Source: Candidatus Izemoplasma sp. (lineage in GTDB: Bacteria > Bacillota_I > Bacilli_A > Izemoplasmatales > Izemoplasmataceae). Taken from it: 64,000 bases of DNA. The DNA is taken from positions 1 through 64,000 of the forward strand of contig JAGYII010000003.1 of the NCBI GenBank assembly GCA_018402725.1, in the 5' to 3' direction. Position numbers and translations under genes: made by a program. Below, in pieces: positions 20,440-52,379 of the stretch (its first letter is position 1; every line of letters begins with the position of its first letter). The notes under the pieces were generated by a model, which saw only the letters and a list, made by a program, of their open reading frames with translations, was not told the DNA's origin and made no database searches.

Positions 20440-21663
20440 ATGAAAGTCCAAGCGTTTATCTTAGCCGGTGGACGTGGATCACGCCTTGACATTTTATCTG
20501 AAAAGCGAGTCAAACCGGCCGTCCCATTTGCAGGAAAGTATCGCATTATTGACTTCACCTTAAGTAACTGTGCCAACTCAGGGATTTATGATATTGGGAT
20601 ACTCACCCAGTATTTGCCCTTTTCATTGAATGAGCATATTGGTTCAGGAAAACCTTGGGATATGGACCGGAGAGATACCCAGCTTTCTTTAATGCAACCG
20701 CATAAGAATTGGTATAAAGGAACGGCGGATGCTTTGAAACAAAACATCGAATCCTTGCACCGTTCTAAGGCGGATTTAGTCTTGATTTTATCAGGCGATC
20801 ATATTTATAAAATGGATTATCGTCTCATGATTGATCACCACATAAAACTAAAGGCAGACGTTACCTTAGCAGTTCAACCTGTCCCAAAAGAAGATATTTC
20901 TCGGTTTGGGATATTAGAAACAGACGCCCATTCTAAAATTACGGCCTTTTTAGAAAAGCCAGAAAAAGCCGACAGTAATCTAGCTTCCATGGGCATTTAT
21001 GTTTTTAATAAAGCCGTCCTAATTGAAGCCCTTGAAACGTTTGAAGAAGAAGACTTAGACTTTGGAAAACATATAATTCCTGCGTATGTTGCTTCTAAAA
21101 CATGTGTGGCATACACGTTTAATGACTACTGGAAAGACGTAGGAACCTATGATGCTTACTTAGAAGCTAACTTAGAACTCACTGAAACCGTCGATAAGAT
21201 TCCCTTAGATATGTACGATCAAAACTGGAAGATATACACCCGCTCAGAAGAGATGCCCGCGGTTAAAGTGGGATCAAAAGCCGTCATTCGTCAAGCCTTG
21301 ATTTCGAACGGTTCAATCATTGCGGGTCATGTTGAAAGAAGTGTGATTTCACCAGGGGTGATCATTCATCCGACTGCCATTGTTCGTCACAGTGTGATTT
21401 TAAATGACACCGTGATCGAAGCCGGCGCGGTGATTGATCATGCGATTATTGATAAAAATGTCAGGGTTGAAAAAAACGCCGTGGTCGGACAAGGTCCCCA
21501 TGATATCCCTAATATAGACAAACCCGATTTATTATTCAGTGGTTTAAATGTTTTAGGAAAAGGCGTCATCGTCAAAGCCGATAGTATCATTGAAAGAAAT
21601 TGCCGAATTTACCCGAATCAAATTGTTAAAGGAACCATAAAAGCGGGAAGCACAATGAAATAA
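20440..21663 (+). CDS. glgC: Glucose-1-phosphate adenylyltransferase
   Basis: Makes ADP-glucose from ATP and alpha-glucose-1-phosphate. 407 residues: FILAGGRGSRLDILSEKR with the catalytic nucleotidyltransferase motif, KPAVPFAGKYRIIDFTLSNC, WYKGTADALKQN, ILSGDHIYKMDY, and a C-terminal left-handed helix of hexapeptides from about residue 290 (ISPGVIIHPTAIVRHS). It conserves the GTADA and SGDHIY residues, so it is the catalytic GlgC type. It supplies glgA immediately upstream; both end at the bidirectional terminator 21662-21687. Confidence 0.95.
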   Translation: MKVQAFILAGGRGSRLDILSEKRVKPAVPFAGKYRIIDFTLSNCANSGIYDIGILTQYLPFSLNEHIGSGKPWDMDRRDTQLSLMQPHKNWYKGTADALKQNIESLHRSKADLVLILSGDHIYKMDYRLMIDHHIKLKADVTLAVQPVPKEDISRFGILETDAHSKITAFLEKPEKADSNLASMGIYVFNKAVLIEALETFEEEDLDFGKHIIPAYVASKTCVAYTFNDYWKDVGTYDAYLEANLELTETVDKIPLDMYDQNWKIYTRSEEMPAVKVGSKAVIRQALISNGSIIAGHVERSVISPGVIIHPTAIVRHSVILNDTVIEAGAVIDHAIIDKNVRVEKNAVVGQGPHDIPNIDKPDLLFSGLNVLGKGVIVKADSIIERNCRIYPNQIVKGTIKAGSTMK

Positions 21664-24597: not shown

Positions 24598-25887
24598 ATG
24601 GCAACCCTAGAAAAATTAGAGCATTCCTATGTAAAACTCACGATTGAAGTGAGTGCGGACCAATTCGAACACGGTTTAGAACACGCCTTTAAACATGTTC
24701 AACCCGACGTTGAAGTGAAAGGATTCCGAAAAGGGAAAGTCCCACGTTCGATGTATGAAAAAAAATATGGGGTTGAAAGCTTATACGATGAAGCCATCAA
24801 TCATATTATTTCAGATACGTATTTTGACGCGATTCAAGAGCTGGATGTTTACGCCGTAGCTCAACCCAAAATTGATTTGGATATCCAAACGATTGCCCAA
24901 GGTAAACCCTTTACTTATACCGCCACGGTAGCGGTTAAACCAGACGTGAAACTTGGCGCTTATAAAAAACTTGAGATGAAAAAGATTTCAGATAAAGTCA
25001 CCGATAAGGACGTCTTAGCAGAAATTGACCAGCTCAGAGAACAAAATGCTGAACTTCAACTCATTGAAAAAAGAGCCCTCAAAAACGGTGATACCGCCAT
25101 TTTTGACTTTGAAGGTAAACTCGAGGGTCAACCCTTTGATGGTGGAACTGCGAAGAATTATGAACTTAAAATTGGATCTAAACAATTTATCCCTGGATTT
25201 GAAGATCAGATGATTGGTTTAAAATCGGGCCAAACCAAAGATTTAAATGTGACCTTTCCCAAAGATTATCAAGCGGCTGATTTGGCCGGTAAAGACGTTG
25301 TTTTCACAGTCACTTTACATGAAATTAAAGAATTTGTATTGCCCGCACTTGATGATGTTTGGGTGAAGAGTCTTAAAAAAGAAGCCATTGAAACAGTGGA
25401 TGCTTTAAAGGCATCGGTGAAAGAAGAGCTCGCTTCTAAAAAAGAAAAAGAGGTTCGAAACGCGAAGATTGATTTTGTGGTTTCAACCGCCTCAGAAAAT
25501 GCAAAAATCGATATTCCCCAAGATATGATTGTCGCTGAGAAAAACCGGATGTTAGATAACACCAAACAACAAGCCTCACAATATGGCATTAGTTTTGAAC
25601 AATATTTACAGTTTTCAAATACGACCTTAGAACAGTTTGAAGCGAATTTATTAAAAGACGCTGAAAAATCAATTCGATACAACCTCGTTTTAGAGGCCAT
25701 CGCTAAAGCTGAGAAAATTGTCGTCCCTAAAGAAAAGCTGGATGAAAAAATCGAAGAGCTTGCAAAACAATATAAGTTATCGATTGAACAAATTGCCAGT
25801 CAGATTTCTGAAGATGTGATTAAACAAGATATCGCGATGAATATGGCCGTTGATTTGATGGTTGAGTCTTTAGTCTTTAAATCATGA
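24598..25887 (+). CDS. tig: Trigger factor
   Basis: Ribosome-bound chaperone with peptidyl-prolyl isomerase activity. 429 residues. The ribosome-docking signature GFRKGKVPRSMYEKKYG is at residues 41-57, the FKBP-like domain spans about 145-235 (NGDTAIFDFEGKLEGQPFDGG, FIPGFEDQMIGLKSGQ) and a long helical substrate-cradling domain follows. AAAGGAGAT precedes the ATG. Four-base overlap with the HAD gene downstream. Confidence 0.97.
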   Translation: MATLEKLEHSYVKLTIEVSADQFEHGLEHAFKHVQPDVEVKGFRKGKVPRSMYEKKYGVESLYDEAINHIISDTYFDAIQELDVYAVAQPKIDLDIQTIAQGKPFTYTATVAVKPDVKLGAYKKLEMKKISDKVTDKDVLAEIDQLREQNAELQLIEKRALKNGDTAIFDFEGKLEGQPFDGGTAKNYELKIGSKQFIPGFEDQMIGLKSGQTKDLNVTFPKDYQAADLAGKDVVFTVTLHEIKEFVLPALDDVWVKSLKKEAIETVDALKASVKEELASKKEKEVRNAKIDFVVSTASENAKIDIPQDMIVAEKNRMLDNTKQQASQYGISFEQYLQFSNTTLEQFEANLLKDAEKSIRYNLVLEAIAKAEKIVVPKEKLDEKIEELAKQYKLSIEQIASQISEDVIKQDIAMNMAVDLMVESLVFKS

Positions 25888-26693
25888 AACCCCGTTTCTT
25901 TGTCTTTGATTTAGATGGTACTCTCCTTAATCGCTCAAAAGAAATTACCCCCCCGCTAATCGCTAAACTTACACAACTAAGAAAAGCAGGTCACCAAATC
26001 ATGATCGCAACGGGCCGTGCCCGGGAAATCACTATGCCTTACTTAGATTTATTAAAAATTGACAATGATGTGATATTTAATAATGGGGCTCAAATCATCA
26101 ATGTGAGTAATGAAGAAGTTCTCTTTGATATTGGAATTTCAAGTGCTGACCAGGCTACGGTCATTAATTACTATCACCGTCATGCCATTCCTTACTCGGT
26201 TTCAACCAGTGAGGGTCTTTGGACATCGGTGGGCTATGATTTAGGGTATTATCAAATCTTTAAAGACCAGTTCCCTGACTACCCTTTAAATAACCATATG
26301 GGTGTGACCTTAGAACGTCTTGAAGGATTGACCATTTATAAAATATTGGCTAAATACGACTCTGAATCTCAGCTTCGCTATCACCAAGCTAACTTGGAAA
26401 AGATGGTGGAAGCCACCGTGACTCAAAGCATGGAAGGTTTCTTAAGTGTTTTACCTAGTGGCATCACGAAAGGGACCACTTTACTTCGTTATCTAAAAGA
26501 AAAGTCCATTGCACTTGACCAAGTGATTGTTTTTGGCGATAATGATAACGACATTGAAATGTTGTCGCTAGTGCCTCATTCATACGCCATGCTTAATGGC
26601 TCTGAAGGAGCTAAAAAAGCCGCAAGTTACATTACAAAAACCGACCATAATCAATATGGTGTGCTAACCACACTAGAAAATATGAATCTTTAA
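25884..26693 (+). CDS. Cof-type HAD-IIB phosphatase
   Basis: 269 residues. Motif I FVFDLDGTLLNRSKEI holds the nucleophile Asp, motif II is in MIATGRAREITMP, motif III lysine in SGITKGTTLLRYL, and motif IV GDNDNDIEML. The large cap is typical of Cof/YidA-like enzymes that remove phosphate from sugar phosphates or flavin/pyridoxal phosphates; the substrate cannot be told. Translation is coupled to tig (ATGA). It could also serve as a sucrose-phosphate phosphatase-like enzyme, but nothing ties it to the sugar locus. Confidence 0.88.
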   Translation: MKPRFFVFDLDGTLLNRSKEITPPLIAKLTQLRKAGHQIMIATGRAREITMPYLDLLKIDNDVIFNNGAQIINVSNEEVLFDIGISSADQATVINYYHRHAIPYSVSTSEGLWTSVGYDLGYYQIFKDQFPDYPLNNHMGVTLERLEGLTIYKILAKYDSESQLRYHQANLEKMVEATVTQSMEGFLSVLPSGITKGTTLLRYLKEKSIALDQVIVFGDNDNDIEMLSLVPHSYAMLNGSEGAKKAASYITKTDHNQYGVLTTLENMNL

Positions 26694-39506: not shown

Positions 39507-40470
39507 ATGTTAATTGTGTTCTAATTTGATCTTCGTTAAATGATTTTAGCAACCATGAGGTATGCGCTTTTAATCCAGTTAAATCGTTCACAATATCGCT
39601 CCTTTAGATACCAAATCTTTACCACTGTCATAACTATAGGTTCCAAAGACCTGGCCACTCTGGGACGTAAGTGGAGCAAATTAAGACTGGAATATTTAGC
39701 TGAATAACACTCTCTAAAGACTTAACCAAATTCGGTGGGACATTACCCCGGCCCATCGCTTCAATGATGAGACCATCGATTTTTGCGAAGCATAAGTAAT
39801 CAATGATTCCAGCGTCCATCCCAGTATAGGTTTTAATGATGGGGACATGACTAGCGATTTCGTTATTGAAGTGATAGCGAGGCTTGGACATCGAACGATA
39901 ATAAATAACATCACTCGCATCAATGACGCCAAGGGGACCAAATGAGAGCGATTGAAACGTATTCACATTAAGGGTATGGGTCTTCGTAACTTCTGAAGCC
40001 GCGTGAATTTCGTAATTCATCAATGTGACTAAAACCCCTTTATTTTTTGATGCTTCATCAAGCGCCACATAGATTGGAAGAGACCAGATTTGTGAATCCA
40101 TCATAACCCAGCTCACTGGCGTTCCCTTCATTGCTCCAGTCACCACAACCGGTTTATCAGACGTGTGAACCATATCTAAATAAAAAGAGGTTTCATGTAT
40201 CGGTTCCGTGCGTGATGACAATCCCCGCAATCTCTGAATCATCCAAAAAAGAGGATTCCATAACCTTTTTAGTTTTCGTATGCTTCTCAGGGGTCATCGA
40301 GGGAGAAGGAATCATCGAATGATGAAGGGTCACTAAATTATCAAATCCTAAGATTCGTATTTAAGGCCTCAAATCTCCGAAGGGTCTTGCATTGGAAATG
40401 CCCCTTTATTCGGATCGAGGGTTTTCATGGTGATCGTCCCCCCGGTAAAAATAATCGCAACTTTTTTCAT
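39505..40470 (-). pseudogene. Asparaginase, type I-like, frame-shifted
   Basis: Hydrolyses asparagine to aspartate. ATG at 40470 (minus) begins KKVAIIFTGGTITMKT, the catalytic TGGTI motif. The second catalytic segment and helix are readable as ETSFYLDMVHTSDKPVVVTGAM. The clean open segment 39634-40242 contains NKGVLVTLMNYEIHAASEVTKTHT, TFQSLSFGPLGVID and GLIIEAMGRGNVPPNL. The C-terminus (SGQVFGTYSYDSG, GLKAHTSWLLKSFN) lies in other frames down to TAA at 39505. Several indels, concentrated at both ends, as in the neighbouring genes. Confidence 0.85.
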
Positions 40471-40898: not shown

Positions 40899-41684
40899 TT
40901 ATTTGCGGGATTTGAATTCTAAGAACGGATCTACCTTGAGTCGCCACTCTGAAATTTTGTGTTCGGCATCTTTCATTGCATCATCATATAAAAGACTAGG
41001 GTGATGAGCATCGGCACTTAAAATGATTTTGACATCATAATTTCTGATGATGTCCCAAAACTCTTTTCGGGGATAAGGGTATCTTTTACCTTGAGAGGTT
41101 TGTTTGATGCCTCTTCTTATTCCGTTTGCGTTAAACTCTAAAGGGATTCCCGTGTCTTTGGCTGCTTTAGCAATGATGTGGGCCGCTTCAACCGCGGCGT
41201 CATCAAATGAATCATATCCACACATATAAATATCAGGATGGGCAAATAAACTAAAGTGACCTGAGTACAAGGCTTTTTTAACGTCCTGGGCATAGGTCTC
41301 AATATGTTCGGGAGCGAATAACGCAAAGGTGCTGATGTAGCGTCCGTTTTGAACGATATAATGTTGTCCTAATATGAGGTAATCAACTTCATTTAAGAAG
41401 TTTTGATAATAGCTTTCTTCAGGCTCGAGGTATTCACACTCTAAACCAAGGTGAACTTTAATCTTATCTTGATAGGCTAAAGCCGTCTCACGGACATCTT
41501 TATAATACTTTTCAAGGTCACGAAAATGCATCCGCATCGGATCAAGATTGAGTAATGAGGGAACATGGTCACTCATTCCAAGTTCAGTAAAACCTTGTTT
41601 AATGGCTTCTTTAACATAATCTTCCGTGGTTCCTTGAGCATGATTACATAGTTCATGGTGCGTATGATAATTGGCTTTGACCAT
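40899..41684 (-). CDS. PHP-family histidinol-phosphatase-like phosphatase
   Basis: 261 residues from ATG 41684 with GAGGT upstream. The PHP metal ligands appear as YHTHHELCNHAQG, MSDHVP, LGLECEYL, FAHPDIYM and SADAHHPS. The sequence follows the histidinol-phosphate phosphatase (HisK) pattern, including the DYVKEAIKQGF and GQHYI segments. No other histidine biosynthesis gene is visible, so another phosphoester could be the true substrate. Transcribed from its own extended -10 promoter. Confidence 0.85.
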   Translation of the reverse strand: MVKANYHTHHELCNHAQGTTEDYVKEAIKQGFTELGMSDHVPSLLNLDPMRMHFRDLEKYYKDVRETALAYQDKIKVHLGLECEYLEPEESYYQNFLNEVDYLILGQHYIVQNGRYISTFALFAPEHIETYAQDVKKALYSGHFSLFAHPDIYMCGYDSFDDAAVEAAHIIAKAAKDTGIPLEFNANGIRRGIKQTSQGKRYPYPRKEFWDIIRNYDVKIILSADAHHPSLLYDDAMKDAEHKISEWRLKVDPFLEFKSRK

Positions 41685-41702
41685 CAAATATACCTCATAA
41701 AT

Positions 41703-41780: not shown

Positions 41781-43025
41781 TTATTGGAGTGTACGAATGA
41801 GATCGGCTAGACGTTGTACGAATTGTTCTTTAGTAATGTTTCCTTGTGCATACTGGAAGTAGATTGGTCCAGCTTCGCCCATACCGAATCCAGAAGGCAT
41901 GTCATTTTGGAACCACGCCCATGATTTACCGGCTTGAGCCCAAACGTTCGCAGCCGCTGATAATGGTGCGGTAACGGGTAAAGTGACACTACGGAAGGCC
42001 GGCACCATGTTGGCTTTTTCAACCATATAGCTATGTCCCTCTTGAGTAAGAGCTAGATCATTTAAGAATTGGTTAGCCGCATCAGTATTGTTACCATCAC
42101 GGTTAATAACGTAGTATGAAGGAGCGCCAACGAAGATGGCATCCACGGTACCACTTACACTTGCATGAGGGGCGTAACCCACAGGGAAGTCAATGGCAGG
42201 TGCGCCAAGTAAGTTTGGATCAATCCAGTTTCCTTGATGAATGAAAGCTACTTTTTGATCTTTGAAAGCTCCTACTTGTGAATCGTAAGTACCTTCTAAG
42301 AGAATGGTTTGATCCGCATATTGAAAGAGTAATTCAACCCAGTCAGCAAGTTGTCCTAAGCGATCCATATTAGGTTGACCTGCTAATAAGTCTTCAATCA
42401 CGGAACGATCATCATAATCAAGACCCGCTGATAAGTAGCCATTGAAGTTATGAAGTCCTGTGACCCATTCCATCCCAGCGCCTGCAGCCATTCCGACAAC
42501 GCCCGTAAGGCCAAGTTCAGCTTTCATGCTGTCTAGTTTTTCAAAGGCAGCACGGTATCCGGCTAAACTGTTTAAACTAGCAGGATTAATGCCAGCAGCA
42601 TCTAAGATGTCTTTGTTATAACCCATACCCCATGCTTCAATGTTGACAGGGAAGCCATAAACCACACCATCGACGGTTAAACCAAGATCGGTATCATCCA
42701 TCCATGCTTGATTTTCAAAGGGTAAAATTTTATCTTTGAAATCATTGAACCCGCCTAGACCTTCAATAACGAAGATGTCAGGTTGGTCCGTACCTTGGAA
42801 CTCAGTTAAGATACGATCGCCGTAAGCACAGGCATCACCACCACATGAACGAACGGTCACGGTAATTCCGTTTTCTTCGCCCCAGGCGTCAGCGTACTCA
42901 CGTAAGATTGCATCAATTTCCACTTTGTTTTGGAAAATGATTAATTCAGTATCCCCTGATCCGCCACACGCTGCTAAGGTAACAACGGTGAACAAAGCAA
43001 GTAATAAAAGTAAAACTTTTTTCAT
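41781..43025 (-). CDS. Sugar ABC transporter substrate-binding lipoprotein
   Basis: Extracellular solute-binding protein family 1. 414 residues. The signal peptide KKVLLLLLALFTVVTLAAC ends in a lipobox with Cys20, so it is anchored on the outer face of the membrane. The mature part has the family 1 pattern, with a possible disulphide (CGGDAC). Pocket residues are not identifiable by eye. It has its own promoter but belongs to the same locus as the two permeases at 46056-47962. The binding of a di- or oligosaccharide is inferred from the GH65 and fructokinase genes. Confidence 0.88.
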   Translation of the reverse strand: MKKVLLLLLALFTVVTLAACGGSGDTELIIFQNKVEIDAILREYADAWGEENGITVTVRSCGGDACAYGDRILTEFQGTDQPDIFVIEGLGGFNDFKDKILPFENQAWMDDTDLGLTVDGVVYGFPVNIEAWGMGYNKDILDAAGINPASLNSLAGYRAAFEKLDSMKAELGLTGVVGMAAGAGMEWVTGLHNFNGYLSAGLDYDDRSVIEDLLAGQPNMDRLGQLADWVELLFQYADQTILLEGTYDSQVGAFKDQKVAFIHQGNWIDPNLLGAPAIDFPVGYAPHASVSGTVDAIFVGAPSYYVINRDGNNTDAANQFLNDLALTQEGHSYMVEKANMVPAFRSVTLPVTAPLSAAANVWAQAGKSWAWFQNDMPSGFGMGEAGPIYFQYAQGNITKEQFVQRLADLIRTLQ

Positions 43026-43064
43026 GGTATCCTCCTATTTTTGGTGCATCATTCTGATGCTTTA

Positions 43065-43092
43065 ATTTTAACATCATGAAAACGTTTTTACA
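43065..43092 (-). promoter_or_regulatory. Promoter of the binding-protein gene with an embedded operator
   Basis: On the minus strand -35 TTGTAA, 17-base spacer, -10 TAAAAT. TAAAAACGTTTTCA (43077-43090) overlaps the -35 and spacer and fits the LacI/CcpA operator form TGWNANCGNTNWCA with one mismatch. A catabolite-repression or LacI site is likely; which protein binds is unknown. Confidence 0.65.
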
Positions 43093-43141
43093 AGTCTTTT
43101 TATCTCTTTATTTAGCCATCTTATAAAAATAGGGTCTTCAA

Positions 43142-43157
43142 TTGGAAAGCTTTCCAA
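43142..43157. promoter_or_regulatory. Perfect palindromic operator candidate
   Basis: TTGGAAAGCTTTCCAA is a perfect 16-base palindrome between the GH65 and binding-protein genes. Near copies stand at the fructokinase promoter and the lacI promoter (50378, 51451), which makes it the probable binding site of the local LacI-family regulator. Confidence 0.7.
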
Positions 43158-43173
43158 GTAAGGCTTATCAATA

Positions 43174-45408
43174 TCACGTATTTAAGCCATTTATTGGGAT
43201 TTCAATGGGTTTTGAAGAAAGCGTATAAAGTTGATTATAAATCTTCATTTCGACCGGATCTGAGGCATAAACTGATAACGTATGATCTTTAATCATGACT
43301 GTTACCGTCTTCGTTTCATGAACTTTAAACTGACCTTTAAATGCTGGCCAGTCCGTGGGCCAATGAGGATTTAGTTGAATAATTGGTTCGACTTTTAAGC
43401 CTAAGAACCCAAACCATAAGCCTAAATGAACGCCCCCAAGATTGGCAAGATGTAAACCATGGAGTGTATTCAGATGGGTATTGTCAAGATCAATTCTAAG
43501 GGTCTCTTGATACATGGTTTTGGCTTCTTCTAACCGATTTAAGCGGGCCGCCATCCCTGCATGTATACACATCGATAACGATGAATCATGGGTGGTGCGT
43601 TTTAAATAATAATCATAACTATTTCCCATCGTCTTCCATGGGCGGTTTTGCAAGATGAAATGTGCAAGCACGGTATCGGCTTGCTTTAAGACTTGGTGGC
43701 GATAAATTGTTAAGGGGTGAAAGTGAAGTAATAACGGTACTTTATCTTTTGGGGTGTTTTTAAAATCCCAAGGCTTCCGTTGTAAAAAGCCATCATCTTG
43801 AACATCGATATCAAGTGTCTGATCATGTAGTAAGACCAAAGTGTCTTTGATCCGCTTAAATAAACCGAGTTCTTCTTCGGATTGATAATAGGAATCTCCT
43901 AAAAGGGATAAGTCAGCTGGATTCTCATTAAAATAATCGAGCATAAAACCCATTTGATGGACAATCATTTGATTGGTATAAAAATTATTATTAACGACGG
44001 CCGAATATTCATCAGGGCCGGTCACATTATTTAAATGGCACTGCGTTCCATCATCATAAATCATCTCGGTAAAGAAGCGGGCCGTCTCAATTAAGATTGG
44101 GAGTCCAGTACGTCTCATCCATGCTTGATTTTGGTGCAGCGTGTAAATCTGAATAATGATATGAACAATGGCGCTATTAATATGAAATTGAGCCGATCCA
44201 GCAGCATAGTAGGCTGAATTTTCTTTTCCGGTGATCGTGCGCCATGCAAACTTCGCCCCTCTTTTAGCACCTAAAATTTGGGCTTCTTTTTTGGCAGCGT
44301 CAAGTTGATGGAAACGATATTGAATTAAATCATAGGCTTTTTGAGGTTCGTGAAGCATGAAATAAGGGACCATGTACATTTCAGTATCCCAAAAGGTGTG
44401 ACCATGATAGCCTTTTCCGGTTAAGCCTTTGGCCGCAATTGAAACAGAATCATCATAACCCCCAGCGGTGGCTAGTTGAAATAAGTTGTAGTGGATGGCT
44501 TCATCATTAGATGAATGATTGGTTTCTATGGTCATTTCAGCATCTTTAAGCCAGCTTTGTAAGCGTACTTGATGAGCGTTGAAAGAAAGATCCCAGCCGG
44601 GTATCTCGGTGATTACAGGCCGGATTTTTTCTTCTAACTCAGGGTGGGTTTTAGCCACTTTATAATGGGCAGACTTTAAGAGTTTAAACGGCTGTTCAGG
44701 ACTCAAATAAAAAGTGTCTTCATAACTGAGCCGGGTCGAACAAGGAACGTTTGATAAAACCGGTTCGTGCTTGATAACGGCTGCTAAGTATTGTTCGGTG
44801 TGATGCGTTTTAAAAAGGGCTAAGCCGCCTTGTTGTAAGGGCTCAAGCCGGATAATTTCTAAAGGCTGATTGTTATCATCAATCCGGGGATCACCGGATT
44901 GGATGGATGTCGTCTTTGTCTCAAGCGTACTTCGAATCGAAATAGGTCCTTCATAGGTTTCACTAGAAAGGGTCCATTCATTAAGGAATAGGCCTGGTTC
45001 TGCGGCAGAAACAAAACGGCGGGTAAAGATATGAAAAAGCCCCAATGTGGGGTGTTGATACGTGGTTTTTCTTTCTACGATTCCCGTCTTTAAATCAAAT
45101 GACCTTTGATTTTTTAAGACCTTGGCAGTTTGATAATGAACCGGCAAACCTTCAATAAAAAATTCAATGGTTTGGGCATCAGGAACTGACACCATGAATT
45201 CATTTCTTGAAGGGAATCCGTAGGCTTTTTCACCGTAATGAATGAGCTCTGTATCAAAAAAACCATTGATAAAAGTCCCTCTTAAAGGTTCGATATCGCC
45301 GGCTTCTTCGATGTTATGACGAACCCCTAAAGACCGATTTTGAACGGCATAAACCGAAGCAAGGTATAAATCCTCAGAGGTGAGTTTATCGGTGTGTTGT
45401 AATCGCAC
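43174..45408 (-). CDS. Glycoside hydrolase family 65 phosphorylase
   Basis: Inverting phosphorylase that splits an alpha-glucoside with phosphate to give beta-glucose-1-phosphate. 744 residues, standard for kojibiose/maltose/trehalose/nigerose phosphorylases. YHGHTFWDTEMYMVPYF, the catalytic acid in VTGPDEYSAVVNNNFYTN (about residue 466), the phosphate-site KQADTVLAHF and the SLSMCIHAGMAARL segment are present. The linkage specificity cannot be read by eye. PgmB is encoded immediately upstream, completing the route to glucose-6-phosphate. The gap of 9 bases indicates one operon. Confidence 0.93.
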   Translation of the reverse strand: MRLQHTDKLTSEDLYLASVYAVQNRSLGVRHNIEEAGDIEPLRGTFINGFFDTELIHYGEKAYGFPSRNEFMVSVPDAQTIEFFIEGLPVHYQTAKVLKNQRSFDLKTGIVERKTTYQHPTLGLFHIFTRRFVSAAEPGLFLNEWTLSSETYEGPISIRSTLETKTTSIQSGDPRIDDNNQPLEIIRLEPLQQGGLALFKTHHTEQYLAAVIKHEPVLSNVPCSTRLSYEDTFYLSPEQPFKLLKSAHYKVAKTHPELEEKIRPVITEIPGWDLSFNAHQVRLQSWLKDAEMTIETNHSSNDEAIHYNLFQLATAGGYDDSVSIAAKGLTGKGYHGHTFWDTEMYMVPYFMLHEPQKAYDLIQYRFHQLDAAKKEAQILGAKRGAKFAWRTITGKENSAYYAAGSAQFHINSAIVHIIIQIYTLHQNQAWMRRTGLPILIETARFFTEMIYDDGTQCHLNNVTGPDEYSAVVNNNFYTNQMIVHQMGFMLDYFNENPADLSLLGDSYYQSEEELGLFKRIKDTLVLLHDQTLDIDVQDDGFLQRKPWDFKNTPKDKVPLLLHFHPLTIYRHQVLKQADTVLAHFILQNRPWKTMGNSYDYYLKRTTHDSSLSMCIHAGMAARLNRLEEAKTMYQETLRIDLDNTHLNTLHGLHLANLGGVHLGLWFGFLGLKVEPIIQLNPHWPTDWPAFKGQFKVHETKTVTVMIKDHTLSVYASDPVEMKIYNQLYTLSSKPIEIPINGLNT

Positions 45409-45417
45409 AATGGACTC

Positions 45418-46056
45418 CTAGTCAAATAGATAATAAGGGATGTCAGCTAATGTTTTAAAAACGACATCCGCCTTTAAAGTCTTTGGATCTCCAATCCCAA
45501 TGGCTTTCATTTTAGCGGCTTTAATCGCCGCAATGCCTGCCGGAGCATCTTCAACCCCGAGCGCCTGTTCAGGGCTTACATGAAGAGCTTCCAGTCCTTC
45601 TATGAAAAGGCCTGGATCCGGTTTTGAAGGATGGAGGGCCGGATTAGAGACGTGTGAGAAATAATGGGTAATTCCTAATTTTTCAATTAACATGGGAGCG
45701 TTTAAAGACGCACTTGCAAGCCCTAATAAAAGGCCTTTGTGCTTTAAGGTTTCAAAGAGTTCAAGCACCCCAGGATAAAGGTCCGCTTCAGTCATCGTCT
45801 TTATTTTTTCTAAGTAGACTTCATTTTTTTTAGCGGCGAGTGATTCAAGTTGAGAGGTTTTAAATGAGGTTTTTGGAAGATAAACGTCTGTGATTTTTTT
45901 AATCGAATCAAACCGTGAAATTCCGCGAAGCTCTGGTTCAAAGGACGCCTTTAGTTCAATGCCCACTGAAGCCACCGTCTCTTTCCATGCGGCAAAATGA
46001 TACGTCGAGGTATCGGTTAAGACCCCATCTAAGTCAAAAATGACGGCTTTAATCAT
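45418..46056 (-). CDS. pgmB: Beta-phosphoglucomutase
   Basis: Converts beta-glucose-1-phosphate to glucose-6-phosphate. 212 residues. The nucleophile and acid are in FDLDGVLTDTSTYHF, the phosphate-binding ASASLNAP and KPDPGLFIEGLEAL (Lys), and GVEDAPAGIAAIKAAKM holds the Mg2+ Asp. R in RGISRFDS is the substrate-binding residue. Position between the GH65 phosphorylase and a permease gene fits the expected phosphorolytic pathway. The ATG overlaps the permease stop by one base. Confidence 0.93.
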   Translation of the reverse strand: MIKAVIFDLDGVLTDTSTYHFAAWKETVASVGIELKASFEPELRGISRFDSIKKITDVYLPKTSFKTSQLESLAAKKNEVYLEKIKTMTEADLYPGVLELFETLKHKGLLLGLASASLNAPMLIEKLGITHYFSHVSNPALHPSKPDPGLFIEGLEALHVSPEQALGVEDAPAGIAAIKAAKMKAIGIGDPKTLKADVVFKTLADIPYYLFD

Positions 46057-46997
46057 TATTTAATGGCTCCAGAAGTCATGCCTTTGATGATGTGTTTTTG
46101 GGCAAACAAGAATAACACCACGACCGGGAAGGCAGCCATTAAGACGGACGTTAAAATCAAGTCCCACTGTCTAACATAGGCCCCCGCTAAGCTGGCGACC
46201 GCTAAGGGCAGGGTCTGGGTCGAACCTCCCACCCCAATGATGAGGATGGGCAAGAGATAATCATTCCATATCCACATCCCATTTAAGACGAGTAAGGTCA
46301 CAAAGATGGGTTTTAAGATAGGGAGGACAATCCTAAAGAATAGTTGCGGTTTATTACAGCCGTCAATAATCGCGGCTTCTTCAATTTCAAGGGGGATCGA
46401 TTTAATAAAACCATGGAGTAAGAAAACACTTAAAGGGGCGCCAAAACCAATGTAGGCTAAGATCACTCCGTGATGCGTATCTCTAATGCCAATCCCAGTC
46501 CACATCGTAATCAGCTCTAAAAAACGAACCAAAGGAAGCATCACGACCTGGAAAGGAATAACCAGCCCAGAGACAAATAATAAAAAGATGGCCGTAGAGA
46601 TTTTTGTTTTAGTCCTGACCAGGACCCAGGCCGCCATCCCACTCGTCACTCCAATTAAAACCAAGGAGAATGAGGTGATGATGACGGAGTTAAAAAATGA
46701 TTGTAAATAGCGAATTTGGGAGGCTTGTAAAATGGTTTGAATATTGGTCCAAAGCATCCCAAAGGATTCCGGTAAACTCGTCGGCGTCCTGACGATCTCA
46801 GCAATCGGTTTAGCGGCATTAATAGTAACGATGTAAAACGGATATAAGAACAAAAGCATCAGTAAGAAGACAAAAACTTCAATGATATGAATGGGGCGAA
46901 GTTTAAAGGTCTTCACCGAGTGCCCAAAATCTTTCATCCATTTTTTGGGTTGCCATTTGAAGGTTTTTAGCTTGTGTAGCCATTTAGCATCCATCAT
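46056..46997 (-). CDS. ABC sugar permease, MalG type
   Basis: 313 residues with six membrane segments after a basic N-terminal region. The cytoplasmic EAA loop reads EEAAIIDGCNKPQLFFRIVLPILKP, which contacts the ATPase. It pairs with the MalF-type permease upstream. No ATP-binding subunit is encoded in this locus; a shared MsmX/MsmK-like ATPase elsewhere would be needed. Ends with WNDYLLPILI and QKHIIKGMTSGAIK, typical of MalG. Confidence 0.93.
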   Translation of the reverse strand: MMDAKWLHKLKTFKWQPKKWMKDFGHSVKTFKLRPIHIIEVFVFLLMLLFLYPFYIVTINAAKPIAEIVRTPTSLPESFGMLWTNIQTILQASQIRYLQSFFNSVIITSFSLVLIGVTSGMAAWVLVRTKTKISTAIFLLFVSGLVIPFQVVMLPLVRFLELITMWTGIGIRDTHHGVILAYIGFGAPLSVFLLHGFIKSIPLEIEEAAIIDGCNKPQLFFRIVLPILKPIFVTLLVLNGMWIWNDYLLPILIIGVGGSTQTLPLAVASLAGAYVRQWDLILTSVLMAAFPVVVLFLFAQKHIIKGMTSGAIK

Positions 46998-47962
46998 TAG
47001 AGTTCCACCTCCCGTTTCTTATTGACGTAAACTTGGGTGATTGAAATCAGTAATAAGACCGCAAAGAAAACAATCGCTTTCGCCTGTCCAACTCCCATGT
47101 TAAAACGGGTAAAGGCTTCGCGGTAAATATCCACCGCCATTAAACTCGTGCCTGAGACTGTTGGAATCGTAGTGATGTTGAGTAAGTTACGGATGTATAA
47201 GGGCAAATCTGTGGCTGGTCCTGAGTTGGTTAAACTTTGAACCGTATCAAATTGCTTAAAGGAGGTCACTAAGGTTAAGAACAAGGCGACCGTAAAAGCT
47301 TGAGCCACAAGGGGTAAGACAATCGCCCGCATTCTTTGAACGGCGTTTGCCCCATCAATTTTTGAAGCTTCAATCAAATCTTCAGGGATGTTTTGTAACG
47401 CGGCGATGTAAATCATCATGATATACCCGGCATACTGCCACGTCACGACCGCAATTAAAGCGAACATCGCATCATTAGGGCTACTTGATAGCGGGGAACG
47501 CTCTAAAAGTTGAAGGCCGACTTGTCCAGCAATAATGTTGTTAAAGATGAATTGCCAAATAAATCCAAGAACCAATCCCCCAATTAAATTGGGGATAAAG
47601 AAGGCCGCGCGGTAAACATTTTTAAGTTTAAACTTCTGAGTCACCAGTAAAGAAAGTCCAAAGGCCACACCGTTAATGACTAAAATATTTAAGACTGAGT
47701 AAATCACGGTCCGGCTGAATGAATAGATAAAACGATAATCGGTAAAAATCGTCCGGTAGTTTTCAAAGCCAATCAGAATTTGACGGCCCGTGTTAAGTCC
47801 GGTCCAATCCGTCATTGAAAAATAGACGCCCATGAAAAACGGGACCCACACCATAATCGCGAAGGCACCAAGTGCTGGGGCTAAAAAGAGCCAAAACCAA
47901 AGGCGTTCAGACGCTTTTTTACCGAGTTTTTTCTTGGGGTTAAGTTTGATTGCTTGTGCCAT
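46997..47962 (-). CDS. ABC sugar permease, MalF type
   Basis: 321 residues from ATG 47962; AGGAGG lies five bases upstream (the ATG three bases earlier is too close to it). Six membrane helices, EAA loop EASKIDGANAVQRMRAIVLPL. KKKLGKKASERLWFWLFLAPALGAF begins the first helix. It overlaps the end of the GT4 gene by about 26 bases, showing tight coupling to that enzyme, and is followed by the MalG-type subunit. Confidence 0.93.
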   Translation of the reverse strand: MAQAIKLNPKKKLGKKASERLWFWLFLAPALGAFAIMVWVPFFMGVYFSMTDWTGLNTGRQILIGFENYRTIFTDYRFIYSFSRTVIYSVLNILVINGVAFGLSLLVTQKFKLKNVYRAAFFIPNLIGGLVLGFIWQFIFNNIIAGQVGLQLLERSPLSSSPNDAMFALIAVVTWQYAGYIMMIYIAALQNIPEDLIEASKIDGANAVQRMRAIVLPLVAQAFTVALFLTLVTSFKQFDTVQSLTNSGPATDLPLYIRNLLNITTIPTVSGTSLMAVDIYREAFTRFNMGVGQAKAIVFFAVLLLISITQVYVNKKREVEL

Positions 47963-49424
47963 CATGACCTCCTAAGTAATGAGTGTTAAGGACATTCATT
48001 GCGTCACACTGGGCGGGAACATCTTTTGGCCAGGTGATCTTTTTAGGTTTATAGTTGAGGCGTATGCCGTCCATACTTTCTAAGTATTTTTTAGCGGTGG
48101 CTTTCCAGGTGTAGGATGTCTCGACTCTTTTTAAGCCTTGAGCTTGGTAGGTGGAATGATGATCGATGATTTCATGAAGACCTCTGGCAATATCAAAATG
48201 ATCGTTCACATCTAACAAGACGCCAAAGGATTCATTCCCTGATTTTAAGACATCTGCAGGCCCCCCATACTTCGTCACTGCAGCGGGTAATCCTGCACAC
48301 ATGGCTTCGATGGGAGCAAGACCAAAGGGCTCGTAGGTGGAGGTTAAACAAAAGACGCTTTGCTGTTTAGCAAAATAACGATAGCTCGCGGCTAAGGCGC
48401 CTTGAGACATGATGTTAATAAAACTAACCATCCCTTTTAATTGATGAGTATTAATCACGTCCATCAATTGATCCATTAAGACTTTCTCTTCGTTTTTTAA
48501 AGCATCATAGGTAGAAAAAGCATCTTCAACCCCTCTTAAACTAATTGCGATGTTTGCTTTAGCCTGCAAGGATTTATCCTTGGCATAGGCTTCAAGAAGT
48601 CCTAAGTGATTTTTCTTTTGATCTAAACGAGAGGCTAAGACAATATAGGGTAGATTGAGTCGTGACGTTTCAATATCACGGTGTAAAGCGTTTTTGATTT
48701 GAGTGTAGGTTTGTTCTTCTTCGGCGTTTAGCGCGTTCATCCCAAAGACTCTTTCGTTCACTCCAGGGGCCGCTACCACAAAAGCATCAGGTTTTTCTTT
48801 TGAAATATCTTGATACGCAAAGTGGTTATATTGTTCATCTTTTTCTTGAGCGGTGGACGTAAATATTAAGCTCGCATTTTGAATGGCAATCCGTTCAGCC
48901 ATAAGGCGGTCGGCAAAAAAGTAGCGGGCTTGCATTTGAACGGCATTATCTTTACTGACTTTTAATTTATCCATTTTCTGGGCGCCTAAGGAATGACCCG
49001 TAAATGAATAGGGCACGTTTAACCGTGAGGCAAGCAAGGCACCCGCATAGCCGCCATCGCCATAATGGGTGGTAATGAAGTCGATGCTACGTCCCTCTTC
49101 TTGGTAAAAGGCGATGATGTGATCAACCCATTCACTTAAAAAGGGCCAAAGTTTTTCTTTATCAATAAACTGATCAGGACCTGCATGAATCCTCACAATC
49201 CGGGCATTTGGATAATCCTTATAGTGATCAATCAACGTTTCAAATCCTGAAAGTTCATGATCATTAAAGCGCCGCGTCACGATATCTACGGTATGACCCA
49301 GTTCAGACATCGCAAGGGCGATTTCTTTCACATATACGAGTTGGCCCCCAAAATCAGGGTGTTCGGTCCAGTAACGGTCTTGAGGATCAAAGTTGCCTTG
49401 GGGATTTAGAAATAAGATATGCAC
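47940..49424 (-). CDS. Sucrose-phosphate-synthase-like GT4 glycosyltransferase
   Basis: 494 residues from a GTG start that shares a base with the fructokinase stop. The beginning MHILFLNPQGNFDP, YWTEHPDFGGQLVYVKE, DIVTRRFND, TTHYGDGGYAGALL and TGHSLGAQKM match bacterial sucrose-phosphate synthase closely, and ASRLDQKKNHLGLLEAY, SLRGVEDAF, TSTYEPFGLAPIEAMCAGLP and TKYGGPADVL complete the GT-B nucleotide-sugar site. It has only the glycosyltransferase part; no phosphatase domain or adjacent sucrose-phosphatase. In this catabolic operon it could work as a sucrose synthase in the cleaving direction, or make a glucosyl-fructose. Its direction is unknown. Confidence 0.85.
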   Translation of the reverse strand: MHILFLNPQGNFDPQDRYWTEHPDFGGQLVYVKEIALAMSELGHTVDIVTRRFNDHELSGFETLIDHYKDYPNARIVRIHAGPDQFIDKEKLWPFLSEWVDHIIAFYQEEGRSIDFITTHYGDGGYAGALLASRLNVPYSFTGHSLGAQKMDKLKVSKDNAVQMQARYFFADRLMAERIAIQNASLIFTSTAQEKDEQYNHFAYQDISKEKPDAFVVAAPGVNERVFGMNALNAEEEQTYTQIKNALHRDIETSRLNLPYIVLASRLDQKKNHLGLLEAYAKDKSLQAKANIAISLRGVEDAFSTYDALKNEEKVLMDQLMDVINTHQLKGMVSFINIMSQGALAASYRYFAKQQSVFCLTSTYEPFGLAPIEAMCAGLPAAVTKYGGPADVLKSGNESFGVLLDVNDHFDIARGLHEIIDHHSTYQAQGLKRVETSYTWKATAKKYLESMDGIRLNYKPKKITWPKDVPAQCDAMNVLNTHYLGGHDGTSNQT

Positions 49425-50353
49425 TATAAGACTCCTTTAGTGAGCTCTTGGTAGTGAGGAAGGGGAGCTAAGGCTCCAATGACATTAAGGACCAACGCAC
49501 TCACAACTTGGGCGTCATCCCATGCTTTTTCAGTCGAGTTCCCATGAAGTAAGCTGGTATAAAATCCGCTATAAAAAGCATCGCCTGCTCCTGTGGTATC
49601 AACGACCTCTTTTGTTTTAGAGGGGACAAGGGTTCGGTGTTTATTTTCACTGATATAAATACCATCTTTTCCAAGACTTAAGATAATCACTGGAATGCCG
49701 TAAGCTTCAAATCGGTCCATGATCGCTTCTTTACTTAAGTCGCCCCATAAACGCTTGGCATCATCAAGCGAAGGTTTAATGAAATCAAGACGTCTAAATA
49801 AAGACTCTAAAGCCTCTAAAGAAATCATCTCCTGATGATCAAGCGCCTCATGAATATTAGGATCAAAGCCAATCACTGCGCCAGATTTTTCTGCCTCATC
49901 TAGACATTTTAAAAGGGTATCTAAGGCGGGCTTACGGGTTAAAGGCCAATAGGAAAAATGGAAAATGCGGGTTTGACGGACCGCCTTCAACAAGGCTTCA
50001 TTAAAAGGAATGTGATAATCAGCCCCTCGTAAAAAGGAAGGGTCTGGGGTGGCTTTAGATTGAGTTAAAGATACGATCGATGTCGGGGAATCGACGACGT
50101 TAATTAAATGAGTCGATAAACCATAGTCGTTAAACCGATTGAGGATTAAATCGCCCTCTTGATCAGCGCCGACTGCGCCTACAAATAAAACACGCGATCC
50201 AAGTTGATGCATATTAATCGCGATGTTAGATGGAGAACCCCCTACTAAGGAATGCTCGTGATGGGCGTCATCAGTAATCCGGTCAATAAGCACTTCCCCA
50301 AAGGTGATGATATCAACGGGATAATGGTTCGTCTTAAGCAACTTCTCTTTCAT
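49424..50353 (-). CDS. PfkB-family fructokinase-like sugar kinase
   Basis: 309 residues from ATG 50353 (AAAGGGG upstream; an earlier in-frame ATG at 50392 lies inside the operator). ITFGEVLIDRI, LVGGSPSNIAINMHQLG and FVGAVGADQEGD form the N-terminal sugar site; the signature DTTGAGDAFYSGFY with the catalytic Asp ends it. FLRGADYHI supports the fructokinase subgroup. In this locus it would turn fructose, released by a sucrose-type reaction, into fructose-6-phosphate. Its stop is coupled to the GT4 start. Confidence 0.88.
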   Translation of the reverse strand: MKEKLLKTNHYPVDIITFGEVLIDRITDDAHHEHSLVGGSPSNIAINMHQLGSRVLFVGAVGADQEGDLILNRFNDYGLSTHLINVVDSPTSIVSLTQSKATPDPSFLRGADYHIPFNEALLKAVRQTRIFHFSYWPLTRKPALDTLLKCLDEAEKSGAVIGFDPNIHEALDHQEMISLEALESLFRRLDFIKPSLDDAKRLWGDLSKEAIMDRFEAYGIPVIILSLGKDGIYISENKHRTLVPSKTKEVVDTTGAGDAFYSGFYTSLLHGNSTEKAWDDAQVVSALVLNVIGALAPLPHYQELTKGVL

Positions 50354-50377
50354 CAGGCACCCCTTTAGTTGTAAAAG

Positions 50378-50427
50378 TGGAAAGCTTTTCATAACTTCAT
50401 TATAGTAACCGCTTACATGAAAGTCAA
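50378..50427 (-). promoter_or_regulatory. Strong promoter and LacI-type operator before the fructokinase gene
   Basis: On the minus strand TTGACT (50427-50422), 17-base spacer, TATAAT (50404-50399), then, right downstream at 50391-50378, TGAAAAGCTTTCCA, a near copy of the palindrome at 43142. A repressor bound there would block initiation. Confidence 0.8.
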
Positions 50428-50432
50428 GGCTT

Positions 50433-51413
50433 TTAAGCGCTAAAGCCTTTACGCAATGTCACTGGTAAGATAATATCTTCAACGGAATCTCCCTCGATCA
50501 TCGCAATCATGTTGGCAGCGATATGAAAACCAATGGCTTCAATCGGCTGCTGAATCGCGGTGAGGCCTCCTAAATTAAAGAACGGACCTTCAATCCCATC
50601 AAAACTAATAATCTTGACGTCATCGGGTATTTTTTTACCCATTTCTTGATAAAGCTGAATCAGGGTATATCCCAGTTCATCCGAAATCGCAAAGATGCCA
50701 TCATAATCAAGATGTCGATAGACGATTTCACGAATAAAGTTTTTAGGGATAAATAAATCCCCTTGGGGATATTCAATGACCTTGTAGTCTTTAAATCCAA
50801 TTTGGTCTAAGTAATCGACAAATCCTAAGCGGCGCTTAGAGACCTCGGTGGTGATTCTAGAGAGTTCGCCCTGGGCATCATCCCCAATGAATAAGAGCTT
50901 TTTAGCGCCTGAAGCAATCAGTGTTTTTGCGGCTATTTGACCGCCTTTATAGTTATCCGTGGTCACGTAGGGAATCCCTTTAAAACGGCGATCAAAGGAG
51001 ATAACTGGGTAGTTTTTAGGAATCAATTTTTCAACATCGTTACTGGTTAAAAAGACGATGCCATCGACCCGTTGGTTTTTTAACATCCCAATCAGTTCAA
51101 TTTCTTTTTGTGCATCTGACCCGGAGTTGCAGACCATTAGTTTATAATTAAGTTGTGACAAGGCATTTTCAAGATGATAAATAAGCGAAGCAAAAAAAAT
51201 GTGATGGGAATAAGGCACCACAAATCCAATGATTCCACTTCTTTGTTTAGTCATGCTGCGGGCGATTTCATTGGGGGTATACCCTAGTTCATTAATCACA
51301 GCTTGAATCTTTAAGCGTGTGGATTCTTTGACCCGGGGTTGATTATTTAAAACCCGAGAAACCGTCGCAATGCCAACGCCTGCTTTTTTTGCTACATCTT
51401 TAATCGTTGCCAT
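50433..51413 (-). CDS. LacI-family transcriptional regulator
   Basis: 326 residues. N-terminal HTH TIKDVAKKAGVGIATVSRVLNN with hinge RSMTKQRSGIIGFVVPYSHH, then the periplasmic-binding-like effector domain (MVCNSGSDAQKE, RVDGIVFLTSN, IISFDGIEG). It is the first gene of the sugar locus and is predicted to bind the TGGAAAGCTTTCCA-like sites, one of which overlaps its own -35. The inducer is unknown. Confidence 0.93.
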   Translation of the reverse strand: MATIKDVAKKAGVGIATVSRVLNNQPRVKESTRLKIQAVINELGYTPNEIARSMTKQRSGIIGFVVPYSHHIFFASLIYHLENALSQLNYKLMVCNSGSDAQKEIELIGMLKNQRVDGIVFLTSNDVEKLIPKNYPVISFDRRFKGIPYVTTDNYKGGQIAAKTLIASGAKKLLFIGDDAQGELSRITTEVSKRRLGFVDYLDQIGFKDYKVIEYPQGDLFIPKNFIREIVYRHLDYDGIFAISDELGYTLIQLYQEMGKKIPDDVKIISFDGIEGPFFNLGGLTAIQQPIEAIGFHIAANMIAMIEGDSVEDIILPVTLRKGFSA

Positions 51414-51487: not shown

Positions 51488-52379
51488 ATGAAGAAATGGT
51501 TTAAAATTACGGGTTGGTTTTTCATGAGTTTATTGGTCTTATTAGGAGGTCTTCATCTGACTTCTAAAATCATGATTCAACAACTCACGGAAGCGGCTCA
51601 AGGGACTCCTTTATTTGAATCAGTTGAATACGTTCAAGTCGATAATCATAATCTCGCTTATAGGGTCTATAATCCCGGTCAAGAAAAAACCGTGGTGATG
51701 ATTCACGGCTTCATGGGGAGCAGTTATGAATTTAATGACTTCTTCTTAACTATGGGCGCTGACAGTGATTTTACTTTCATTGCCTTTGACACCATGGGAT
51801 TTGGGCTTTCTGATAAGCCTTTAGACTTTGAATACACTTCTCAAAATCATGCGGTCACTTTAATGCAAGCGATTGATAATCTTGGGATTGAAACCTTTTC
51901 CTTAATGGGTCATTCAATGGGGGGTGGCATTGCCATCCGGATGAGTCTGCTTGATCAAAGTCGGATTGAAAATTTAGTTTTAATTGCGGCGACAGGACCC
52001 ACCCTTATGGAAGGAGGTAATGGAGCCCCGGCTTTATGGTTTTTTGATGTCCTCTTTAAAAACTATTTTGCGCAGCGTCTTGGCATTAATTCCGCCACGG
52101 TCGGAAAAACCTTTCACGAGAGACATTTGCACCCTTTATCGCTCAAAATGCAGCGATTCCAAGTACCGTCTTACAAAATTCACTTTAGACCAAGATATCG
52201 TGTCCTATTTTGACGATCTCAAAGGATTAACTGTTAGAACCTTCTTATTTACGGTGCAGAAGACAGCTGGACGTCTCCATCCTTATTACTCACCTATGTC
52301 CAAGAAATGCCTCGTTCATCAGGGTATCAACTCGCAAACAGTGGGACACTTACCTTATTTAGAACAACCTGAGAACTAA
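51488..52379 (+). CDS. Membrane-anchored alpha/beta hydrolase, C-terminus frame-shifted
   Basis: The intact N-terminal ~215 residues have one membrane helix (residues 8-27) followed by an alpha/beta hydrolase fold: MIHGFMGSSYEF (oxyanion), FDTMGFGLSDKP, and the nucleophile elbow MGHSMGGGIA. From about 52140 the frame shifts; the remainder, including LDQDIVSYFDDLKGLTV and a closing GHLPYLEQPEN with the likely catalytic His, is readable in another frame, ending at 52379. Substrate unknown. Divergent from lacI, with AAGGAG before the ATG. Confidence 0.8.

Follow-up and report, generated by a model that had tools for sequence, protein, structure and literature searches.

The window analysed here, a stretch of 64,000 nucleotides (positions 1 to 64,000 of contig JAGYII010000003.1, assembly GCA_018402725.1), comes from the 1.02 Mb, 85.5% complete assembly of Candidatus Izemoplasma sp., a member of the Izemoplasma group, whose cells have no wall. 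At positions 41781-51413 the reading-frame list places eight genes, all on the minus strand, that form a candidate operon for the use of disaccharides (Table 1). A LacI-family regulator is followed by a PfkB-family kinase, a family GT4 glycosyltransferase, two ATP-binding cassette (ABC) permeases (PermF and PermG), the beta-phosphoglucomutase PgmB, a predicted GH65 phosphorylase, and a sugar-binding lipoprotein (SBP). The original prediction, made from the letters of the sequence, had named these families, and all of them are recovered by Pfam or NCBIfam matches. The genes from PfkB to PgmB touch or overlap, only 9 bases separate PgmB from GH65, and no ABC ATPase is encoded in the eight-gene locus. 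PgmB passes the curated equivalog cut-off of its family (206.5 versus 189.4 bits). The lipobox cysteine of the SBP, C20, is invariant in all 15 aligned homologues, and a fold search returns only the general fold shared by carbohydrate-binding components of such importers, the top rows being tied. Across relatives of the order, PermF retains about 54-67% identity and PermG about 59-73% (83% in one short piece), and LacI is 47-60% identical to the LacI genes found in the same operon of relatives.

Table 1. Features of the window discussed in the text; the operon is given in order of transcription, followed by sequence signals and other genes.
Feature	Position	Strand	Basis or remark
LacI-family regulator, first operon gene	50433..51413	-	Pfam PF00356 + PF00532
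PfkB-family kinase, probable fructokinase	49424..50392	-	PF00294; possibly internal ATG start
GT4, sucrose(-phosphate) synthase type	47940..49424	-	PF00534 + PF00862; closest solved chain 2r60
ABC permease PermF, MalF/UgpA-like	46997..47965	-	PF00528 (BPD_transp_1)
ABC permease PermG, MalG/UgpE-like	46056..46997	-	PF00528 (BPD_transp_1)
Beta-phosphoglucomutase PgmB	45418..46056	-	TIGR01990
GH65 inverting alpha-glucoside phosphorylase, predicted	43174..45408	-	PF03636 + PF03632; loop partly trehalose-phosphorylase-like
Sugar-binding lipoprotein SBP of ABC importer	41781..43025	-	PF13416/PF01547; lipobox LAAC
Promoter-like site before LacI	51456-51429	-	sequence signal scan
Promoter-like site between LacI and PfkB	50399..50427	-	TTGACT-17-TATAAT; overlaps operator-like palindrome 50404-50417
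Terminator-like hairpin behind SBP	41764-41747	-	sequence signal scan
glgA	19018-20436	+	name read from the sequence
glgC	20440-21663	+	the genome's strong PF00483 match, 217.6 bits; name read from the sequence
Frame with PF05116 match	25884-26693		
Asparaginase gene	39565-40470	-	stops in two patches
HisJ-like PHP phosphatase gene	40899-41687	-	
Alpha/beta hydrolase gene	51488-52351	+	in-frame stops TGA 52211, TAG 52235

The grouping of these genes recurs among relatives. The same eight-gene order, whose gene set the original prediction had proposed to look for elsewhere, was found in eight other genomes (L031, L032, L106, L113, L117, L118, L121, and L192), and variants in further genomes have no adjoining PgmB or carry an extra, different GH65. 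In a set of 61 relatives, with GT4 scored as present at an identity of at least 51% and GH65 at a match to the window protein above 413 bits, GT4 occurs in 20 (one copy being incomplete) and the window type of GH65 in 25. All 20 genomes with GT4 also have this GH65, and none of the 36 genomes lacking the GH65 has the GT4 (Fisher p = 9e-12 by genome and 7e-7 by genus, both without correction for kinship). Because the gene order recurs and the two enzymes co-occur, the association of genes in the locus is not a matter of chance. Five genomes (G002, G014, G024, G021, and G034) have the GH65 without such a GT4, the contigs being cut in the last two. The operon of the sister genome G002 (L123, L181) consists of a distant GT4, PgmB, GH65, and a PHP gene only; its GT4 (L123:8949-10463) is 30% identical to that of the window and in alignment lacks the usual catalytic residues. 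SBP orthologues occur in 30 of the 90 genomes of the order.

One of the five provides a natural replacement of the genes in question. In G024, a single-contig genome, the operon reads LacI-PermF-PermG-PgmB-GH65-SBP, without PfkB and GT4, and some 115 bases upstream of LacI, in the same orientation, stands a gene for a GH13_4 amylosucrase or sucrose hydrolase. Its product matches 4flq at 513 bits, the residues that we take to be catalytic align, and the 61 genomes contain no other match at E <= 1e-50.

The GT4 itself is closest among solved chains to 2r60, the sucrose-phosphate synthase (SPS) of Halothermothrix orenii, which it matches at 476 bits over residues 2-453, as compared with 105 bits for the sucrose synthase (SuSy) AtSus1. 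Its best NCBIfam name is TIGR02472, the sucrose-phosphate synthase domain, at 284.4 bits against a cut-off of 576. The catalytic residues H144, E365, and E373 (the histidine and E-x7-E of GT4) are kept in alignment with TeSPS and HoSPS, the H. orenii enzyme. With its 494 residues the protein comprises only the GT-B core and has neither the N-terminal domains nor the acceptor site of sucrose synthase. In TeSPS the phosphate of sucrose-6-phosphate (S6P) is held by R105, R178, R249, and R253 (PMC7264703), to which K89, R173, R266, and K270 of the window GT4 correspond; two sucrose synthases carry Q at the R173 position and V or I at that of K270. The chemistry would be like that of TreT-type catabolism and of SuSy; by sequence the protein falls outside the SuSy group, and any SPS activity would be putative.

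The closest solved chain to the kinase is likewise from H. orenii (3hj6, named fructokinase, 180.6 bits), and its best NCBIfam name, fructokinase PRK09434, scores 112.8 bits, below the equivalog cut-off of 450. The pairing of kinase and GT4 extends well beyond the order. A survey of the module covered 95 loci from several phyla, some of them representing one place twice. Under a strict rule (same strand, less than 250 bases), GT4 has a PfkB or PRK-fold kinase as its immediate neighbor in 61 of these loci; several of the 34 misses reflect overlapping genes, larger gaps, fused genes, or the end of a contig. The two proteins are fused as PfkB-GT4 in Anaerovirgula (L035) and in reverse order, GT4-PfkB, in Anaerolineales (L064 and L066, to which the domain scan was confined; L068 is of similar length). 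GH32 enzymes are found near PfkB-GT4 in L035 and L037, and a GalT/HIT-like gene directly follows GT4 in 6 of the 95 loci. The GalT-like protein of L103 has as its best solved match 1z84 (190 bits), presumably At5g18200, well ahead of 6k5z, which bears the name GalT and ranks next among different proteins with 107 bits. Arabidopsis At5g18200 has been called ADP-glucose phosphorylase (PMC6329318), and a gene of this kind behind GT4 fits the removal of ADP-glucose after a putative cleavage of sucrose. No GalT-like gene of this sort was found in the genome of the window, and four of the 61 relatives give weak partial matches only. Sucrose as a substrate of the locus, handled by GT4 and a kinase, as originally proposed, is thus supported by the pairing, the fusions in both orders, the GH32 and ADP-glucose-phosphorylase-like neighbors, and the amylosucrase of G024.

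Other surroundings of the module are more varied. VIT-family genes stand behind GT4 in L099 and L100 and an SDR gene in L081, and the frames examined behind GT4 in L082 and L046 gave no match. In Anaerolineae without PfkB, a small protein of PRK/uridine-kinase fold, possibly a sugar kinase, lies beside GT4 (L057:9333-9983, L048:5458-6105, L044:769-1401); for the PRK-fold kinase c20 the search gave no firm name. In Halanaerobium loci, including L042, L043, and L052, an alpha-glucan phosphorylase comes after PfkB-GT4, and the module faces a type I pullulanase, a setting in which sucrose and glycogen may be connected.

The GH65 enzyme is distant from the solved members of its family (6w0p at 209 bits and the kojibiose phosphorylase 3wiq at 201). 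The general phosphorylase motifs are present as GPDEY at 464 and THDSSLS at 606, and LKQAD is found at residue 574; in this family GPDE[YF] contains the catalytic acid and HxSSLS forms the phosphate site. Specificity has been associated with positions 64, 392, 394, 402, 416, and 585 of CsKP, which read TRIGPP in trehalose phosphorylases and EEAPxx in kojibiose phosphorylases (PMC8537180), and it was against these published motifs that the window protein was compared. By anchoring it reads F-R-I-A-A-P, which is part of TRIGPP and not the whole, with positions 64 and 585 dependent on gap placement (plain MAFFT columns give E and H for the window). R392 and I394 are present in all 23 GH65 rows of the order and P416 in 20, the complete TRIGPP occurs in a single row (L106), and EEAP is found in neither the window protein nor its orthologues. 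In the tree these 23 rows group together with an SH-aLRT of 100, adjoining clostridial, actinobacterial, and Niveispirillum GH65s. Different types of GH65 accompany GT4 elsewhere, namely the kojibiose type (EEAPW) in L040 and L109 and a QGQ type in L057 and L108. A second GH65 with the loop I-G-P-H also occurs in or beside the operon (L031:17545-19791, L032:13753, L038:6122, L114:12598, L188:8107-10461), a loop unlike any motif given in the excerpt of PMC8537180. Kojibiosyl-fructose, a substrate suggested by PMC9909042, was considered for the window and set aside, the GH65 motif not being of kojibiose type.

The nucleotide used by GT4 can be approached through the genes available to the cell. 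In the window glgA and glgC point to glycogen synthesis from ADP-glucose, a possible sink for that compound. Of the 61 genomes, 8 have strong matches to GalU, which exceed the cut-off in 5 and are split or fall short of it in 3; these include 2 of the 20 genomes that carry GT4. Because of this scarcity, together with the presence of glgA and glgC, ADP would be the likelier nucleotide. The absence of GalU was also tried as a marker of GT4 and rejected, there being no association (Fisher p = 1.0).

From gene content, conservation, co-occurrence, fusions, the one replacement, and active-site residues we infer substrates, direction, nucleotide, and flux as follows. The preferred reading is of a catabolic operon headed by LacI, in which sucrose and a trehalose-type sugar would be used in parallel and GT4 would work in the direction of cleavage; its probability is put no higher than about 45%, given that just one of the 23 rows has the complete trehalose phosphorylase motif. 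The cargo would be energy-rich disaccharides of the non-reducing kind, which in saline or sediment habitats were most likely released as compatible solutes; the SBP and the two permeases would take them up with an ATPase encoded elsewhere. GH65 would phosphorolyse a trehalose-type alpha-glucoside to beta-glucose-1-phosphate and an acceptor sugar, and PgmB would convert the former to glucose-6-phosphate. In parallel, GT4 would cleave sucrose with a nucleoside diphosphate (NDP), most likely ADP, to yield ADP-glucose and fructose; PfkB would trap the fructose as fructose-6-phosphate (F6P), and the ADP-glucose could enter glycogen via glgA. In other bacteria with the module, an ADP-glucose-phosphorylase-like enzyme would instead convert ADP-glucose to glucose-1-phosphate. 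In this way the sugars would be split with their bond energy conserved. If the reading holds, many bacterial genes now annotated as sucrose-phosphate synthase would instead help fermenters, small-genome kin of the mollicutes among them, to break down sucrose with a saving of energy, and the scavenging of compatible solutes would be linked to ADP-glucose and glycogen. A cultivated relative, Xianfuyuplasma coldseepsis zrk13, is reported to grow with either sucrose or trehalose and to up-regulate its GH65 in rich medium (PMC8397711).

A number of observations weigh against this reading. The clamp for the phosphate of F6P or S6P is intact in 87 of 88 aligned GT4 homologues, the sole exception being the L123 protein that also lacks the catalytic residues, so that GT4 may not accept free sucrose. 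With the clamp unbroken, the enzyme would act on phosphorylated sucrose, or its site would tolerate free sucrose, or it would somewhere run forward. The closest solved relative, the H. orenii SPS, is known as a synthetic enzyme. Two Cof-type HAD phosphatases (the second assigned by likeness to the first) lie behind PfkB-GT4 in Halanaerobacter (L050), and these and the alpha-glucan phosphorylase of Halanaerobium could mark synthetic settings, so the direction of GT4 may differ between clades. The window GH65 departs from TRIGPP at three of the six positions (F64, A402, and A416) and sits on a long branch, and its specificity may therefore have moved; among the 23 rows, T64 occurs in 6 and G402 in 2. 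The amylosucrase replacement is seen in one genome only, and G014, which is without GT4 and keeps PfkB, has a different GH13 upstream, cut by the contig end, that resembles oligo-1,6-glucosidase or sucrose isomerase. GalU is generally missing from these genomes, irrespective of GT4. Finally, L188 has the same importer with only the other type of GH65 and no GT4, so sucrose need not be the importer's only cargo.

The alternative that best survives, itself unlikely, has sucrose phosphorylated first. PfkB would then be a sucrose 6F-kinase, and GT4 would split sucrose-6F-phosphate into NDP-glucose and F6P with no free fructose, as the conserved clamp and the fusion of the two proteins both ways round might lead one to expect. 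Sucrose-6F-phosphate phosphorylases clustered with kinase genes also suggest that the phosphorylated sugar is a natural intermediate (PMC7178133, PMC6521584). However, a single literature search on this point found no PfkB-family sucrose kinase, the one named in the excerpt of PMC6521584 being the bifunctional alpha-galactosidase/sucrose kinase AgaSK, and a PfkB without GT4 beside a GH13 in G014, together with GH32 and PfkB in L035 and L037, suits a fructokinase. With ADP as the nucleotide, GT4 running backwards would produce F6P and ADP-glucose, and in combination with an ADP-glucose-phosphorylase-like enzyme this would amount to an undescribed phosphorolysis of sucrose by several enzymes, with the nucleotide recycled. 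Such a route would be widespread, occurring in Izemoplasmatales, Firmicutes, and Chloroflexota under an annotation as sucrose synthesis; this speculative extension seems about as improbable as the kinase step itself.

Somewhat less probable again is the serial route of the original prediction, in which GH65 trims an imported alpha-glucosyl-sucrose, GT4 cleaves the leftover sucrose with NDP, and the fructose passes to PfkB. Such substrates exist in nature, as cyanobacteria make alpha-1,2-glucosylsucroses, in larger amounts when exposed to salt and heat stress (PMC9909042). The first of the SBP's fold matches, though tied with others, is RafE, a protein that binds oligosaccharides containing sucrose. 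In L040 and L109 the GH65s that sit with PfkB-GT4 are of kojibiose type, so a glucosyl-sucrose route may hold in these two loci, which also have an ABC importer and a GalT-like gene. In the window, by contrast, the handling of sucrose by GT4 and kinase is supported and the trimming step is less likely, because the GH65s of the operon share part of the trehalose phosphorylase motif and do not carry EEAP; the parallel scheme fits these sequences better. Biosynthesis, the direction that the original prediction had also allowed and in which PfkB and GT4 would make S6P as a compatible solute from fructose and NDP-glucose with an unlinked HAD phosphatase, is the least probable of all: homology to the H. 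orenii SPS, the retained F6P-type clamp, the Cof-type phosphatases behind PfkB-GT4 in L050, and the presence in 60 of 61 relatives of PF05116 (S6PP) matches that exceed 20.3 bits, Pfam's loose cut-off (mostly short stretches, one of them a frame of the window), speak for it, but the operon shares an importer, GH65, and PgmB under LacI and contains no sucrose-phosphate phosphatase, elsewhere an amylosucrase, GH32, or ADP-glucose-phosphorylase-like gene stands beside or in place of the module, and the top PF05116 score in the 61 genomes is 54.9 bits, with no score of a true sucrose-phosphate phosphatase as a yardstick.

Promoter-like matches in the region are at chance level (24 found versus 23.7 expected), and terminator-like sites number 15 against 9.5 expected. 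Palindromes at 43142-43157 and 50404-50417 were considered as LacI operators and rejected, as one or two such matches are expected by chance in the window (1.31 for the latter, at the mismatches allowed). The PHP gene, tried as a sugar phosphatase of the operon, was likewise rejected, since it sits behind the terminator-like hairpin and, among the loci read, adjoins the operon only in the genus of the window (window, L031, L032, and L123); in L195 about 11 kb separate a 46% relative from an SBP fragment. The neighboring asparaginase gene appears decayed or misassembled and is intact, at 325 amino acids, in the sister genome G002 (L181:7672-8649). On the other side of the operon, the alpha/beta hydrolase frame is interrupted, whereas those of relatives are open and about 310 amino acids long.

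No description of this gene set was found in the literature searched, in keeping with the original prediction, which knew of no described pathway; its parts nevertheless resemble several known systems. The ycj cluster of Escherichia coli (YcjN-O-P, YcjT, YcjU, YcjW; NC_000913) likewise combines an SBP and two permeases with GH65, PgmB, and a repressor, but has neither GT4 nor fructokinase, and its GH65, the kojibiose phosphorylase YcjT, carries the E392-A394-P402 signature that the window protein does not. The SPS (2r60/2r66/2r68) and fructokinase (3hj6) of H. orenii are the closest solved relatives of GT4 and PfkB and have active-site residues in common with them; the SPS is treated as synthetic in the literature, and its nearest kin in the comparison set are the Halanaerobiales loci of PfkB, GT4, and alpha-glucan phosphorylase. 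The operon spsA-sppA-frkA-amsA of Synechococcus PCC 7002 brings together an SPS-type gene, a fructokinase, an amylosucrase, and a link to glycogen, but includes a phosphatase and is discussed as a means of sucrose turnover in an autotroph, with no importer, GH65, or PgmB named in the excerpt (PMC11046441). With sucrose synthases (AtSus1, 3s27; NeSus, 4rbn), GT4 shares the GT-B core and a predicted reversible, NDP-dependent sucrose chemistry, while lacking their N-terminal domains and carrying R173 and K270 in place of Q and V or I. A close precedent for the proposed use of a retaining GT4 in disaccharide consumption is treEFG/treTR of Thermotoga maritima, where trehalose induces treT and the gene is regulated jointly with an ABC importer for trehalose (PMC3750489); TreT enzymes are also GT4 proteins (PMC11046441), but the GT4 of the window is a member of the sucrose(-phosphate) synthase branch, with a PfkB kinase as its partner here and as its fusion partner elsewhere.

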